The notes below the pieces were generated by a model that saw only the letters and a program-made list of their open reading frames with translations, ran no database searches and was not told the origin of the DNA. Below, in pieces: positions 12,479 to 57,483 of a stretch of DNA of 64,000 nucleotides. The stretch spans positions 1-64,000 of the forward strand of contig JAFUGC010000028.1 of the NCBI GenBank assembly GCA_017469565.1, given 5' to 3'. This stretch comes from Clostridia bacterium (GTDB taxonomy: Bacteria > Bacillota > Clostridia > TANB77 > UBA1234). The first letter of the stretch is position 1. Every line of letters begins with the position of its first letter. Both the position numbers and the translations under genes were made by a program.

Positions 12479-13525
12479 ATGAAACCGAAAATATGTTTAG
12501 TATGTGATGTTCCCAATTGGGCATTTGATATCATCGCACGAAAAGTAAAACAAGGGTTAGAAGAAAAATATGAGATTATCATAGATTATTATGATATGAG
12601 GGAAAAACCAGATGAATTATATGAGTTTTTGGAGAAGAACAGTGACTGCGACTTGATTCATTTCTTCTGGCGCAAATCTTTATTGCAAATGGAAACAAAA
12701 GCTTTTAAGCAAAAGGTAGAAGCCAAAGGAATGAAAGTATTAGATTATATACAGGAAAAAAGTAGTCAGATATCCACGGGAGTCTATGACTTTTTGTTTC
12801 TTGAAGAGGAATCCAGGGCAGCCTTTCAGAATGTTTTTAATCTATATGCCAACAATTATTGTGTAAACTCAAAAAAATTATTGGATACTTATGATAAAAT
12901 TAGTACTTTCAAACACCCAACTGCTATTGTACATGATATATGTGATGTCACCAGATTTGTTCCAATGAATCTAGAAAGATTTGAAAAGACTAGTGAAGAA
13001 GAGCTTGTAGTAGGCTGGGTAGGAAATAGCAAACCTCAAATCAATGGGATAGATTTAAAAGGGTTTCATACCATTATTAAACCGGTGGTTCAAGAACTGA
13101 TAGCAGAAGGGTATAAAATGAAGGAACATTATGCTGATAGAAACATCCAGTGGAGAACATCAGAAGAAATGCCGGAATATTATAGTCAAATTGACTTATG
13201 CCTTTGTACTTCTATCCATGAAGGAACGCCACTTCCTATTCTGGAATCCATGGCTTGTGGAGTTCCAATTGTATCTACAGATGTGGGAATTGTGAGAGAA
13301 GCTTTTGGACAAAAACAACAAGAATACATTATTGGGGACAGGCTATTAGGCGAAAATGACAATAAAATCAAAAATGTTTTAAAAGAAAAAATTATCCAAA
13401 TATATCAACATAGAGAAATATTAAAAGAGCTTTCTAAGGAAAATATGGAAAGTATCATACAGTATGATGGTGGAAAAATTATGAAAGAGTATGAAGCGTA
13501 TTTTCAAAAGTGCTTGAAAAAATAA
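12479..13525 (+). CDS. GT4-like glycosyltransferase
   Basis: 348 aa. The C-terminal half is clearly GT-B: VGWVGNSKPQINGIDLKG as the donor-domain start, and CLCTSIHEGTPLPILESMACGVPIVSTDVG as the E-x7-E segment. The N-terminal half is less typical (HFFWRKSLL), so the acceptor is unclear. It starts 8 bases after the GT2 gene, and a terminator follows at 13521. The two are likely partners in one surface glycan. Confidence 0.8.
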   Translation: MKPKICLVCDVPNWAFDIIARKVKQGLEEKYEIIIDYYDMREKPDELYEFLEKNSDCDLIHFFWRKSLLQMETKAFKQKVEAKGMKVLDYIQEKSSQISTGVYDFLFLEEESRAAFQNVFNLYANNYCVNSKKLLDTYDKISTFKHPTAIVHDICDVTRFVPMNLERFEKTSEEELVVGWVGNSKPQINGIDLKGFHTIIKPVVQELIAEGYKMKEHYADRNIQWRTSEEMPEYYSQIDLCLCTSIHEGTPLPILESMACGVPIVSTDVGIVREAFGQKQQEYIIGDRLLGENDNKIKNVLKEKIIQIYQHREILKELSKENMESIIQYDGGKIMKEYEAYFQKCLKK

Positions 13526-13557
13526 GAAGGAGCCTAATTGGCTCCTTCCTTATTTTT
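13521..13557. terminator. Bidirectional intrinsic terminator
   Basis: AAGGAGCC/GGCTCCTT stem with an AATT-type loop, flanked by AATAAG and CTTATTTTT. It lies between the converging GT4 and htrA genes. Confidence 0.85.
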
Positions 13558-14770
13558 ACTGACCTTTATATTCTTCTAAGGTTACTTTTACTGTTTTTGT
13601 ACGATTATCTCTAATCAATCCAATTTCAATTTCTTCTCCAACTTCATGTTCTGAAACTTCAGCAGTGACTTCACTTGCACTAGATATTACTTTTCCATCT
13701 ATTGAAATGATAATATCCCCTTTTTGAATTCCAGCTTTCTCAGCAGGAGAATCTTCTAATACAGATTCTACAGCAGCTCCATATTGCGTTTGTTGATAGA
13801 AGTAATCCCAAATGCTACCATAGGAGTTTCTTGATGAGTAAGCAGAGTTAGATAAAGATACGCCAAGGAATGGTCTGTTTGTTGCGTAGCCATGAGTAAG
13901 AATATCCTCAATAACAGAGTGAACATCATTAATTGGAATGGCAAATCCAAGACCTTCTACATTAGAACCAGTGGACTTTGCATTCACAATACCAATGAGC
14001 TCGCCATTGATATTAAATAAACCACCGCCAGAATTTCCAGGGTTAACTGCTGCATCTACTTGCATTAAGTTTTTGGTAGAACCGTCAATATCTAGCTCTC
14101 TTTCTAGTGCACTTACATAACCATAAGTTACAGTTCCACCAAGTTTTCCGAGTGGATTACCGATTGCTAAAACAAAATCTCCCACAAGTGTTTTTGATGA
14201 ATCTCCAATTGTAGCTGGAGTAAGGTTTGTTGCTTCTATCTTTATGATTGCTATGTCTGTTTTGGAATCTTTTCCAATAAGCTCTGCCTCATATTCTTCA
14301 CCATTTCTTAATCTAACAGTTATTTTTTCTGCACCACTAATGACATGATTATTTGTTAAGATATAACCGTCTGTTGAAATAATAACACCACTACCATTTC
14401 CCTCTGCTGTATAGGAAGAGTTAAAATAAGTTCTTGCTGTACTATATTCTGTTATTTCTACAACAGAATCTGCCGTTTTGGCAACCACATTGGAAAGCGA
14501 TGCAACCACTACTCCAGAATTTTCACCTTTCACTATAGGTGTGGAAGACGCTATTAGTGTATTATTTGAACTTGTAGGTATATTTGGCTGTTCAGAATGA
14601 ACTGAAAGTTTATTGGAAAAAGTGGAATAGATACTTCCTGCAGAAAAGCCAATTGCTAAAAATAACGCAATGCTTAGTAATTTTGAGAAGACACCCCCCG
14701 CGGAAGTATGATGATTCTTATCCATCTCATCATAAATTTTGTCACGTTTGAAATCACTTCTAAAAGACAT
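13556..14770 (-). CDS. HtrA/DegP-type serine protease with PDZ domain
   Basis: 404 aa. A cytoplasmic N-terminus and one membrane span (about 31-50) are followed by a Ser/Thr-rich linker, then the trypsin-like domain. The catalytic triad is H142 (TNNHVI), D172 (TDIAII) and S247 (GNSGGG), and a PDZ domain covers about 300-400. This membrane-anchored architecture is the HtrA/YycK group of Gram-positive quality-control proteases acting outside the membrane. Transcription is leftward from the 14771-14994 divergent region, which holds a 10-bp direct repeat. It has its own SD (AAAGGGTGA). Confidence 0.9.
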   Translation of the reverse strand: MSFRSDFKRDKIYDEMDKNHHTSAGGVFSKLLSIALFLAIGFSAGSIYSTFSNKLSVHSEQPNIPTSSNNTLIASSTPIVKGENSGVVVASLSNVVAKTADSVVEITEYSTARTYFNSSYTAEGNGSGVIISTDGYILTNNHVISGAEKITVRLRNGEEYEAELIGKDSKTDIAIIKIEATNLTPATIGDSSKTLVGDFVLAIGNPLGKLGGTVTYGYVSALERELDIDGSTKNLMQVDAAVNPGNSGGGLFNINGELIGIVNAKSTGSNVEGLGFAIPINDVHSVIEDILTHGYATNRPFLGVSLSNSAYSSRNSYGSIWDYFYQQTQYGAAVESVLEDSPAEKAGIQKGDIIISIDGKVISSASEVTAEVSEHEVGEEIEIGLIRDNRTKTVKVTLEEYKGQ

Positions 14771-34796: not shown

Positions 34797-35477
34797 ATGA
34801 AAAGAGGAAAGAGATATCAAGAAAGCTTAAAGCTTATTGAAAAAGGTGTATCTTATGATGCAAAGGCTGCATTCGAACTAATCGAAAAAATGCCAAAGGC
34901 AAAATTTGATGAGACAATTGAAGCTCACTTCAAACTAGGTGTTGATTCTAAACATGCAGATCAACAAGTTAGAGGCGTTATCGTATTACCACATGGAACA
35001 GGTAAAACACAAAGAGTTTTAGTGTTTGCAAAAGGTGATAAGGCTAAAGAGGCTGAAGAGGCAGGAGCAGATTTTGTTGGAGCAGAAGATTTAGTGCCAA
35101 GAATTGAAAAAGAAAACTGGTTTGACTATGATGTTATCGTTGCCACACCAGATATGATGGGTATCATTGGTAGACTTGGTAAAGTATTAGGACCAAAAGG
35201 ATTAATGCCAAACCCTAAATCAGGTACAGTTACTATGGATGTAGCAAAAGCAGTAAAAGATATTAAATCAGGTAAAATTGAGTATAGACTAGATAAGAAT
35301 AACATCATCCATTGTCCAATTGGAAAGTTATCTTTCGGAGCAGAAAAATTAGCTGAAAACTATGCAGCATTATATGATGCAGTATTAAAAGCTAAACCAG
35401 CTGCTGCAAAAGGACAATACATGAGAGGAATTTCTGTTTCTAGTACAATGGGACCTGGCGTTAGCGTAAAAGCTTAG
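34797..35477 (+). CDS. rplA: 50S ribosomal protein L1
   Basis: 226 aa, with [25 protein letters not shown] and [16 protein letters not shown], the L1 signatures. It binds 23S rRNA and its own mRNA. It is the last gene before the L10 leader. Confidence 0.97.
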
Positions 35478-35489
35478 TTTCATATAGAA

Positions 35490-35612
35490 CCGTAGACAGT
35501 AGGTTGTATTAATGTTACGTAAAGATTCCTACCGAGGTAGATAAATGTTCGGATTACAAGACATTTCTGCTTCGGTGGAAGTGTCTTTCTTATTTATGAA
35601 AAAAGGAGGTGT
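35490..35612 (+). promoter_or_regulatory. Ribosomal protein L10 leader
   Basis: The 140-base gap between rplA and rplJ holds ACCGTAGACAGTAGGTTG, CCTACCGAGGTAGATAAATG and a GACATTTC/GAAGTGTC hairpin. These are recognisable pieces of the L10(L12)4-binding leader of rplJL, which represses translation when L10 is in excess. Confidence 0.75.
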
Positions 35613-54256: not shown

Positions 54257-54595
54257 ATGGAAGATTGTATTTTTTGTAAAATCATTCATCAGGAAATTCC
54301 ATCAAAGATTGTATTTGAGAATGATTTGGTGATTGCGTTTGAGGATTTGAATCCTGTGGCTCCTGTACATATTTTAATTGTACCAAAAAAGCATATCAAA
54401 AGTGCTATGGAGCTTACAGAAGATGATGCAAAGTTTGTCTCAGAAGTGTACATGGTAGCACAGCAGATTGCAAAAGAAAAAGGAATTGCAGAAAGTGGCT
54501 TCAGGATAGTGAATAATTGTGGAGAAGATGCCGGACAAACGGTAAAACATATTCATTTTCATTTAATTGGTGGAAAAGAACTAGGAACCATGTAA
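54257..54595 (+). CDS. HIT-family (HINT-like) protein
   Basis: 112 aa from ATG 54257, 12 bases after the AlaRS stop. Starts MEDCIFCKIIHQEIPSKIV, ends with the histidine triad HIHFHLIGGKE. A purine nucleoside phosphoramidase or similar. HINT proteins cleave aminoacyl-AMP, so the position after an aminoacyl-tRNA synthetase may be meaningful (inference). Confidence 0.92.
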   Translation: MEDCIFCKIIHQEIPSKIVFENDLVIAFEDLNPVAPVHILIVPKKHIKSAMELTEDDAKFVSEVYMVAQQIAKEKGIAESGFRIVNNCGEDAGQTVKHIHFHLIGGKELGTM

Positions 54596-54621
54596 GAAAT
54601 TGCATTGTATCAAGAAAAGAT

Positions 54622-54656
54622 AAAACCGCACAAATAGCTATTTTTGTGCGGTTTTA
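54622..54656 (+). terminator. Terminator with CCGCACAAA stem
   Basis: AAAACCGCACAAAT pairs with ATTTTTGTGCGGTTTT around a short loop. Same core as 47301. Confidence 0.8.
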
Positions 54657-54684
54657 AAATTTTTTAAAAAATTTACAAAAATAG

Positions 54685-54713
54685 TTGACATAAATTAAAT
54701 AGTGTGTTAGAAT
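54685..54713 (+). promoter_or_regulatory. Promoter of the GC-rich island
   Basis: TTGACA 54685-54690, 17-base spacer, TAGAAT 54708-54713. A leader of about 110 bases, AT-rich with a TATAG/CTATA hairpin near 54796-54810, precedes AAAGGAGG. Confidence 0.75.
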
Positions 54714-54831
54714 AATAGACGTTGTGAGAAAAATTTTCCAGTGTTTGTTTGATAGTGAGTTCTATTAATAAATTTGCTTTTCCCGTTTTAATATAGATAT
54801 TCTATAGGGAAAGGAGGAATGCGGAATAGGG

Positions 54832-55158
54832 ATGCATATGTCTACCCTGTGCCACAAGAGACTTGTCTCTGATGCGGCGAGAGTCGCTGGGGTTGCATAC
54901 CCCGTGGCAGTAGCCTGTGTGGATAACTACCGTGGTCTTGGAAAAGACATGGTAGACGTCCTTCGCTTCGTTGCAGAACGTAGCGGAAAGGCTACCATGG
55001 CTCAGGCTAACATGCTGTCCAACTTCGACTGGCGCGTCCAGCGGAAGGGCTGCATGGAAGTACTCGGCAAAGAGCTTTGGAAGCGTGTCCAGCATAGTTG
55101 CGGATCTGATTCGCAGCGTATTGGTACGCTTGCCAGGTTCCTCTTGTCTGAGGAATAA
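54832..55158 (+). CDS. Hypothetical 108-aa protein in the GC-rich island
   Basis: 108 codons from ATG 54832 (ATG 54838 is also possible), with AAAGGAGG at about 54809 and AATAGGG closer. GC of the ORF is about 54% (hand count 176 of 324), and every Phe, Tyr and Asn codon ends in C and every Gln in G, unlike the neighbours. Base counts per codon position differ (G 42/26/30, A 24/29/16, T 18/32/29, C 24/21/33), a modest coding signal. The product is basic, with only one Pro and one Ile, and no signal or span. Family not recognised. It is either a transferred gene or a by-product of an RNA gene. Confidence 0.5.
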   Translation: MHMSTLCHKRLVSDAARVAGVAYPVAVACVDNYRGLGKDMVDVLRFVAERSGKATMAQANMLSNFDWRVQRKGCMEVLGKELWKRVQHSCGSDSQRIGTLARFLLSEE

Positions 55159-55203
55159 GCCGGCAGTCATGCCATTGGTTCCACCCCCGCAAGGGATCGA
55201 GAT

Positions 55204-55238
55204 AAAAGGTACTGATTTGGTAAATCAGTACCTTTTTT
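55204..55238 (+). terminator. Intrinsic terminator of the GC-rich island
   Basis: GGTACTGATTT pairs with AAATCAGTACC, GGT loop, six T. Confidence 0.92.
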
Positions 55239-55379
55239 GCGTTTCAATTTTAAAAAATCAGGTTCTTTTTTCCTTTTTCACCAGGATTTGTGGTTTGAAA
55301 AGTACTTTTACAGATGCTAAGATTTAATTGTTGGTGGGAAAAACACCACAATAAAATTTTAAGAAAGGAAGGAAACTAC

Positions 55380-57224
55380 ATGAAAAGAATTTTAGCACTT
55401 ATTTTATCTTTTGCAATGATTCTTGGAATGATGCCTATGGCCTTTGCAGAGGGGGAAACCGTGGTTGCAAAAATAGGCGAAGAGGAATACCAAACCATCA
55501 CGGCTGCAATTAATGCGGCACAAACAGGTGAAACGGTTACACTTGTGAGTGATGTGGAAACAGATGAATTATTTTCTGTTCCTTCTGGTATTATCATTGA
55601 TGGTGGGGGAAAAACCATCAAAAGTACTTATGCAGGAAATAAGGCCAACCTTATTACCATAACCGGAAAAGGAGAAACAACCATTCAAAATTTAAATATA
55701 GATGTAACAGAAGCTCAAATTAAATATGCAGTTCATGTGTATAGCAAAGAGGAAGAAAGTTTAGCAACAGTTACCTTAAGTAAAGTAAAAATAGAGGGAG
55801 GCAATTATGCAGCTATCTTAGTCAATGGTTCTGAAGTTACGATAGAGGATTCTACCTTAAATCCTGGCGAGAACGCCTATACCAATGTAGAATATGCTAT
55901 GGGAAGTAATGTGACATCTGTACCAAAGATTACTCTCAATAATGTAACTACCAAAGAGGGATTAAATGTGATGTATGCTGACAGTGATACATTAAAAGCA
56001 ATTGATGCGGAGAGCACAGAAAAAGCCCTTGAAATTGTTAATAGCAATCTAGTGGGAGCAAAAATTTCTCTAGATGAAGATGGGAATGCTTATGATTTTG
56101 TAGAAGTAAAGTATCAATTAACACTCAATTATGCAGATGAACAAACAGAGTCAAAGGAAATTGAAGTGATAGACGGGGAAGAAGTAGAATTAGAAGTGCC
56201 AACAAGAGAAGGGTATACATTTGAAGGCTGGAAGGCTGAAGATGGAACCATATATGGCAAAGAAGAAGACAAAAAATCAATCAAGGTAGAAAGTGACATT
56301 ATTCTTACCGCGGAGTGGAAAAAGATTGAAACGGAAGAAAGTGGAGACAATAGTGGTGATACAAGCGGCGATGTAAGTGGAGACATTAGTAGCGATGCAA
56401 GCGGCGATGTAAGTGGAGACATTAGTAGCGATGCAAGTGGTGATGTAAGTGGAGACATTAGCGGTGATACAAGCGGCGATGTAAGTGGAGACATTAGCGG
56501 TGATACAAGCGGCGATGTTAGTGGAGATATTAGCGATGATACAAGTGGCGATGTCAGTGGAGATAAGAGTGGTGATACGAGCGTGGATGATAAAACATCT
56601 TCAGGTGGTAAATCAAGTGGCAAAGGTGATAAAAAGGAAGAAAATAAAGAAGATAATAAGGAAGAAGAAAAAACAGAAGTAAAAATCACTTTTGATGATA
56701 TTAAATCAGGAGATTGGTATTATGAATCCGTGAAAGACTTAGTAGGTAAAGGAGTAATCAAAGGAACTTCCAAAGATAAGTTTTCTCCAGAATTAAAACT
56801 TACTAGAGGTATGTTAGTTACTATGCTTCATAGACTTGAAAATGAAGAAAAGGCAACAAAGAAAATTACATTCAAAGATGTAAACGAAAAGGCATATTAT
56901 TATGATGCTGTTGTATGGGCAGCAGAAAATAAAATTATTGTTGGCTACAATGAGGAAACCTTTGGAGCAGAGGACGAAATTACTAGAGAACAAGTGGCCC
57001 TAGTACTTTACAGATATCAAAAATATTTAGATAAAGATGTGAAGGTGAAAGAGGATAGTATGAAATTTGATGATGCTAAGGAGATTAGTGATTATGCCAA
57101 GACTGCAATGCAATGGGCTGTAGAGAAGGGAATTATGAAAGGAAAAGATGAGAAAATTCTTGCTCCTAAAGATATTTCTTCTAGAGCCGAGATTGTTGTG
57201 ATGATTGGAAGGCTAGGGAAGTAA
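55380..57224 (+). CDS. Secreted protein with InlB-type repeat, Ser-Gly-Asp repeat and three C-terminal SLH domains
   Basis: 614 aa from ATG 55380 (AAGGAAGG upstream). A signal peptide (1-24, ending MAFA) is followed by a beta-helix-like region (about 30-245, with TTIQNLNIDVTEA), one InlB B-repeat/Flg_new module (about 250-320, REGYTFEGW, TAEWKK), a 84-residue SGDx linker (DNA 56340-56591), a Lys/Glu linker, then three SLH modules (ITFDDIKSGDWYYESVKDL, ITFKDVNEKAYYYDAVVWA, MKFDDAKEISDYAKTAM). SLH modules bind secondary cell-wall polysaccharide, so this is a surface-anchored protein. It ends at a very long hairpin. Confidence 0.85.
   Translation: MKRILALILSFAMILGMMPMAFAEGETVVAKIGEEEYQTITAAINAAQTGETVTLVSDVETDELFSVPSGIIIDGGGKTIKSTYAGNKANLITITGKGETTIQNLNIDVTEAQIKYAVHVYSKEEESLATVTLSKVKIEGGNYAAILVNGSEVTIEDSTLNPGENAYTNVEYAMGSNVTSVPKITLNNVTTKEGLNVMYADSDTLKAIDAESTEKALEIVNSNLVGAKISLDEDGNAYDFVEVKYQLTLNYADEQTESKEIEVIDGEEVELEVPTREGYTFEGWKAEDGTIYGKEEDKKSIKVESDIILTAEWKKIETEESGDNSGDTSGDVSGDISSDASGDVSGDISSDASGDVSGDISGDTSGDVSGDISGDTSGDVSGDISDDTSGDVSGDKSGDTSVDDKTSSGGKSSGKGDKKEENKEDNKEEEKTEVKITFDDIKSGDWYYESVKDLVGKGVIKGTSKDKFSPELKLTRGMLVTMLHRLENEEKATKKITFKDVNEKAYYYDAVVWAAENKIIVGYNEETFGAEDEITREQVALVLYRYQKYLDKDVKVKEDSMKFDDAKEISDYAKTAMQWAVEKGIMKGKDEKILAPKDISSRAEIVVMIGRLGK
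56340..56591 (+). repeat. 12-bp tandem repeat coding for SGDx, with a 36-bp higher order
   Basis: 21 consecutive four-residue units S-(G/S/D/V)-D-x. From the third unit the x residues cycle V, I, A/T, so six 36-bp super-units are visible (V-I-A, V-I-A, V-I-T, V-I-T, V-I-T, V-K-T). The DNA copies differ at silent positions (ggt/ggc/gga). In-frame, length-variable repeat. Confidence 0.92.
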
Positions 57225-57226
57225 GA

Positions 57227-57289
57227 AAATAAAAGAATTCCCATGGGAACCCTTAAGAGGGCACTCCCATGGGAATTCTTTTATTTTTT
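57227..57289 (+). terminator. Long perfect 23-bp stem terminator
   Basis: AAAATAAAAGAATTCCCATG.. (23 bp) pairs perfectly with its complement around a loop that itself can pair CCCT/AGGG, followed by T-rich sequence. Arms contain the palindrome GAATTCCCATGGGAATTC. Confidence 0.88.
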
Positions 57290-57483
57290 AACTTGTTATG
57301 ACTAAGAGATTGGAAATTTTTCGCGATACTTTTTGAGGAGATACACCGATGTTTTGAGAATGGAGTCTAATATTTATGTCAACTTAAAATAGCTGTCAAA
57401 TGTAAATTTCCGTAGGAAAAATTAACAAAAATGCATTTAAATGTAAACAAATTGTAAATTTCGTAAATGTTTTTTAAACTTTG
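57290..57483. other. Non-coding upstream region of the main S-layer-type gene
   Basis: Part of the 428-base gap 57225-57652. No gene seen. The motif TGTAAATTTC(C)GTA occurs at 57401-57414 and 57453-57465, upstream of the promoter, and could be a regulator site. Otherwise AT-rich. Confidence 0.5.

Follow-up and report, generated by a model that had tools for sequence, protein, structure and literature searches.

A candidate gene for a large structured non-coding RNA beside a surface-layer gene in a Clostridia bacterium

Main finding

A segment of about 520 nt (54714-55238) is best explained as a stand-alone gene encoding a large structured non-coding RNA, equipped with its own promoter and terminator and belonging to no described family, a reading to which we assign a probability of roughly two in three. 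The segment lies within a window of 64,000 nucleotides, the whole stretch of DNA that was analysed. It carries the signals of one transcription unit, folds in a non-random way, matches no known family and is absent from the relatives that were sampled. It is probably an orphan, found in one genome so far, and its function is putative. An earlier, sequence-only reading of the same DNA had offered two accounts of it, a structured RNA or a small transferred protein gene, and had made no choice between them; the evidence set out below favours the first.

The transcription unit

The unit occupies positions 54685-55238 of the + strand and consists of a promoter, a GC-rich body and a terminator, in a host chromosome of roughly 35% GC. 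Its elements are as follows.

54685-54713, + strand: extended -10 promoter of the sigma-70 type, TTGACA-17-TAGAAT, the second hexamer being preceded by TG, agreeing with consensus at 11 of 12 positions
54714-55238, + strand: transcript predicted for the RNA gene, with its start placed from the promoter and its end from the terminator
55204-55238, + strand: intrinsic terminator, whose perfect 15-bp stem is capped by a loop of 3 nt (55204-55236) and followed by a T run

The sequence-only reading had described a GC-rich island with a good promoter at 54685 and a perfect terminator at its end, and each of these descriptions holds. The GC content of the body is 0.537 at 54800-55099 and 0.517 at 54950-55249, as compared to about 0.28-0.42 nearly everywhere around it, and the promoter is both the best of its type in the 64-kb window and the sole zero-mismatch match there to the extended pattern. 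Promoter and terminator together support the single transcription unit that had been proposed, and would give rise to a transcript of its own of about 520 nt. The first 24 bases of the predicted transcript (54714-54737) also find a 96% match in two genomes, G793 and G1000, which belong to a different family within the phylum, probably by chance.

The predicted fold

The minimum free energy computed for 54714-55240 is -207.9 kcal/mol (z -6.9), a value reached by none of 100 dinucleotide shuffles, and the core of the unit (54820-55200) is likewise more stable than every one of 100 shuffles (z -4.2); on the opposite strand, the core gives a weaker fold, with a z of -2.95. Folding energy by itself is a weak class of evidence where conserved structure is claimed. 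Other properties of the fold also depart from chance: GNRA tetraloops are enriched relative to 400 shuffles (p 0.0025), the ensemble is better defined than in 400 shuffles (ensemble defect p 0.0175), and 8 perfect short hairpins are observed where 3.8 are expected (p 0.012). Most helices have a pair probability (P) above 0.8. The helix assignments listed here are computed from this single sequence and stand as a prediction of the fold in the cell.

54715-54748, + strand: 5' terminal hairpin, P 0.85-0.92
54826-54850, + strand: hairpin AUAGGG/CCCUGU, P 0.93
54851-54908, + strand: cloverleaf (four-way junction) with GCCAC/GUGGC as closing helix and three hairpins of 5 bp, whose loops are CUUG, GAGA and UGCAU, all helices P 0.93-0.99
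54910-54995, + strand: three-way domain closed by GUAGCCU/AGGCUAC, containing a long arm capped by a GGAA tetraloop and another that ends in a GCAG loop, helices P 0.79-0.99
55006-55061, + strand: long arm ending in CUGG CGCGU CCAG, helices P 0.73-1.00
55077-55136, + strand: long arm with a 9-bp apical stem, GUUGCGGAU/AUUCGCAGC, helices P 0.80-0.99
55137-55173, + strand: two short hairpins, P 0.76 and 0.80, the second of them 3' of the stop codon that ends the 108-codon frame discussed below

The model combines two long arms with a cloverleaf, a three-way domain and a number of hairpins, and has the stable multi-junction fold, beyond chance, that characterizes large structured bacterial non-coding RNAs. 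Most of the hairpins that had earlier been picked out by eye recur in the predicted fold, at 54857-54870, 54889-54903, 54927-54955, 54962-54987 and 55137-55156, but the one at 55116-55129 is absent from the minimum-energy structure, where it competes with the longer arm at 55077-55136. ARAGORN assigned no tRNA or tmRNA identity to the unit, the cloverleaf included, and there is no tRNA in the window.

The lack of a homologue in the genomes sampled would also be expected if the segment were decayed or foreign DNA, without function and well folded by accident. This is a very improbable account of a GC-rich body that is framed exactly by a strong promoter and an intact terminator, and whose fold statistics lie so far from those of shuffled sequences.

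RNA or protein

The main competitor of an RNA gene is an orphan gene for a small, helical protein of 108 amino acids, which would have come from a GC-richer source and have a strongly folded mRNA, or else a gene with a dual role, coding and RNA.

54832-55158, + strand: 108-codon open frame, most likely fortuitous (a frame of this length in 2.3% of structure-preserving permutations; neither Pfam nor NCBIfam offers a family with a usable score)

Open frames on both strands had been noted from the sequence, and there are indeed two, of 108 codons in the sense and 122 codons in the antisense direction. A sense frame of at least 108 codons arises in 2.3% of permutations that preserve the structure (with pairs and unpaired bases permuted), and the uneven base composition of codon positions reported earlier is real but weak, the period-3 signal having a chi-square p of 0.022; both observations lend some weight to a coding function. 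So does a strong Shine-Dalgarno-like sequence, AAAGGAGG, at 54810-54817, although its spacing of 14 nt before the ATG is too long. When the 108-residue product was compared with protein families, as the sequence-only reading had suggested, no Pfam family was found and the best NCBIfam match (E 0.087) fell below the cut-off, but residues 49-103 gave a weak match (E 0.005) to part of PHROG 21708, an unnamed family of uncharacterised function; the sole hit obtained with 10 shuffled proteins had an E of 0.099. A PADLOC search of the open frames gave no match. AlphaFold, run without an alignment, models the product as six helices in an all-helical arrangement at low confidence (pLDDT 50), as compared to a pLDDT of 36 for the antisense frame, which was rejected as a protein.

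Against a protein stands, above all, the fold of the frame itself. The open frame folds at -138.8, whereas synonymous-codon shuffles average -112.8 (sd 4.5), giving a z of -5.7 with none of 300 shuffles as low; in the same treatment of 60 pieces of coding sequence from the window, z averaged -0.63 (sd 1.1) with a minimum of -3.9, and the frame itself scored -5.1. Because the fold goes beyond both the synonymous shuffles and real gene pieces, the structure is no by-product of a protein. The amino-acid composition of the product is no more protein-like than shuffled DNA, the GC3 of the frame is 0.58 versus 0.26 in the host, and the paired, GC-rich region runs on 3' of the stop codon, as far as about 55200. 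Searches with tblastn recovered no relative of the product in phages, plasmids or 57 relatives, and back-translation and pattern scans of genome contigs and viral contigs likewise returned none.

Taken together, the fold tests, GC3, composition, Shine-Dalgarno spacing and pairing past the stop favour RNA over protein, and the GNRA loops and well-defined ensemble point in the same direction. The transferred protein gene retains the open frame, the period-3 signal, the PHROG match and the low-confidence all-helical model on its side, and has against it a fold that exceeds coding constraint. A coding or dual role keeps about one chance in five, because the searches returned no homologue and hence no covariation.

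Searches for relatives and known RNA families

Covariance models of Rfam 15, among them those for OLE, ROOL, GOLLD, raiA, tmRNA, RNase P, 6S and SRP RNA, gave no hit at gathering score over the unit, and extending the search of 611 bases up to E 5 added only chance hits, nearly all of them miRNA models on the terminator hairpin. The earlier statement that the unit belongs to no known RNA family is accordingly upheld at gathering and permissive thresholds alike. As a positive control, the same models found the ribosomal protein L10 leader (RF00557) in the window, at 35472-35599 with 61.9 bits, and, beyond the window on the same contig, 6S RNA (L089 7229-7423), the glmS ribozyme (13430-13597) and tRNAs; the negative result for the unit is therefore informative.

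The proposal to follow Rfam with BLASTN and covariance searches for homologues was also pursued, and among the genomes sampled no homologue appeared. BLASTN against relatives and against samples of the class, order and phylum returned only matches of about 20-55 bases, in several cases with the AT-rich leader, whose E values are such as chance would give in hundreds of genomes, and nothing meaningful in phages or plasmids. BLASTN, tblastn and covariance models found no homologue in 5 congeners and 7 other members of the family, and pattern scans of genome contigs and viral contigs, with covariance checks of the loci from the two scans that returned any, gave nothing. Two covariance models, R2 for the 5' half and R3 for the 3' half, each built from this single sequence, found the window itself and one chance hit, of 19.3 bits, which falls in the apparent start of an aspartokinase gene (locus L111) and was discarded. 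Since single-sequence models are insensitive and stricter filters applied in the larger runs, remote homologues may have escaped detection; the genomes searched, moreover, are samples of species. As neither the RNA family libraries nor the related genomes searched contain a match, the RNA is a candidate for a new class of large RNA.

The locus and the adjacent surface-layer gene

Upstream of the unit lie alaS and hinT, and downstream lie genes for proteins with SLH domains. In three congeners (G003, G004 and G005) the S-layer gene comes immediately after hinT, and the present genome carries additional DNA between the two.

54585-57417, + strand: extra stretch of about 2.8 kb between hinT and the S-layer gene, corresponding to 56 bases from the hinT end to the S-layer leader in G005 (BLASTN)
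55380-57224, + strand: SLH surface-protein gene, with a signal-peptide-like start, a Flg_new repeat and three SLH domains (Pfam)

Besides the RNA gene, the extra stretch contains a single SLH gene; no recombinase is visible in it. The SLH protein has a linker of Ser-Gly-Asp repeats (GDVSGDIS...), and its similarity to relatives within the genus lies mainly in the SLH domains.

This arrangement raises the question of whether the unit is instead a long 5' leader of the SLH gene at 55380, an attenuator or riboswitch in which the terminator at 55204-55238 would be regulated. The unit is on the same strand and immediately 5' of the SLH gene, both lie in the stretch that congeners lack, and a terminator stands at its end. 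The SLH gene has, however, a promoter candidate of its own at 55295-55323, between that terminator and the coding region, and there is little potential for an antiterminator, as alternative pairing with the 5' arm of the terminator gains 0.8 kcal/mol as compared to -16.9 for the terminator hairpin. No riboswitch family matches, and the unit would be very long for a leader; such a role is improbable. Antisense pairing of the RNA to neighbouring genes yielded nothing that stands out, the SLH genes not being distinguished among 40.

With no sign of a switch or of antisense pairing to neighbours, and given a likeness of kind to OLE, ROOL, GOLLD and the smtA motif, the free-standing RNA would most likely act in trans as a folded scaffold, alone or with protein; antisense pairing or a switch for the downstream gene would be less likely modes of action.

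Comparison with known large RNAs

OLE, ROOL and GOLLD form RNA-only dimers or cages in cryo-EM structures (PMC12286853). The RNA predicted here resembles them as a stand-alone RNA of several hundred nucleotides with many helices and junctions and a putative function, but it is about 520 nt long and Rfam links it to none of them, even with hits up to E 5 admitted. ROOL and GOLLD, furthermore, are located in phages or prophages, often near tRNA islands (PMC12286853), whereas the window has no tRNA, the neighbours here are alaS, hinT and SLH genes, and no phage record matches; neither phage genes nor a tRNA island were recognised at the site.

The smtA motif, or 'Soda Lake RNA', is a complex, genus-restricted RNA of more than 350 nt in a GC-rich intergenic region (PMC11109978). 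Both are large, complex, lineage-restricted and GC-rich, with a putative role, but the smtA motif is confined to Thioalkalivibrio and backed by covariation and northern blots, and the two are compared here by description only. The genes for 6S, tmRNA, RNase P and SRP RNAs similarly specify structured RNAs and are GC-rich within AT-rich genomes, and tmRNA and RNase P RNA are of similar length; the unit differs in having no Rfam match to them, and the genome's own 6S RNA lies elsewhere on the same contig.

Significance

Large structured RNAs of bacteria are few, and their roles are mostly unknown. The present gene is a credible lead, for which the status of a class would need homologues or expression. 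Tentatively, and at worse than even odds, it may represent a so far undescribed class of large ornate RNA that perhaps assembles on its own or into a ribonucleoprotein, and that a single low-GC bacterial lineage acquired along with a surface-layer protein gene. If the gene is real, it would mean that large RNAs can be restricted to one lineage and so escape family-based searches, because such searches depend on homologues, and its adjacency to a surface-layer gene would offer a place to look for its role.
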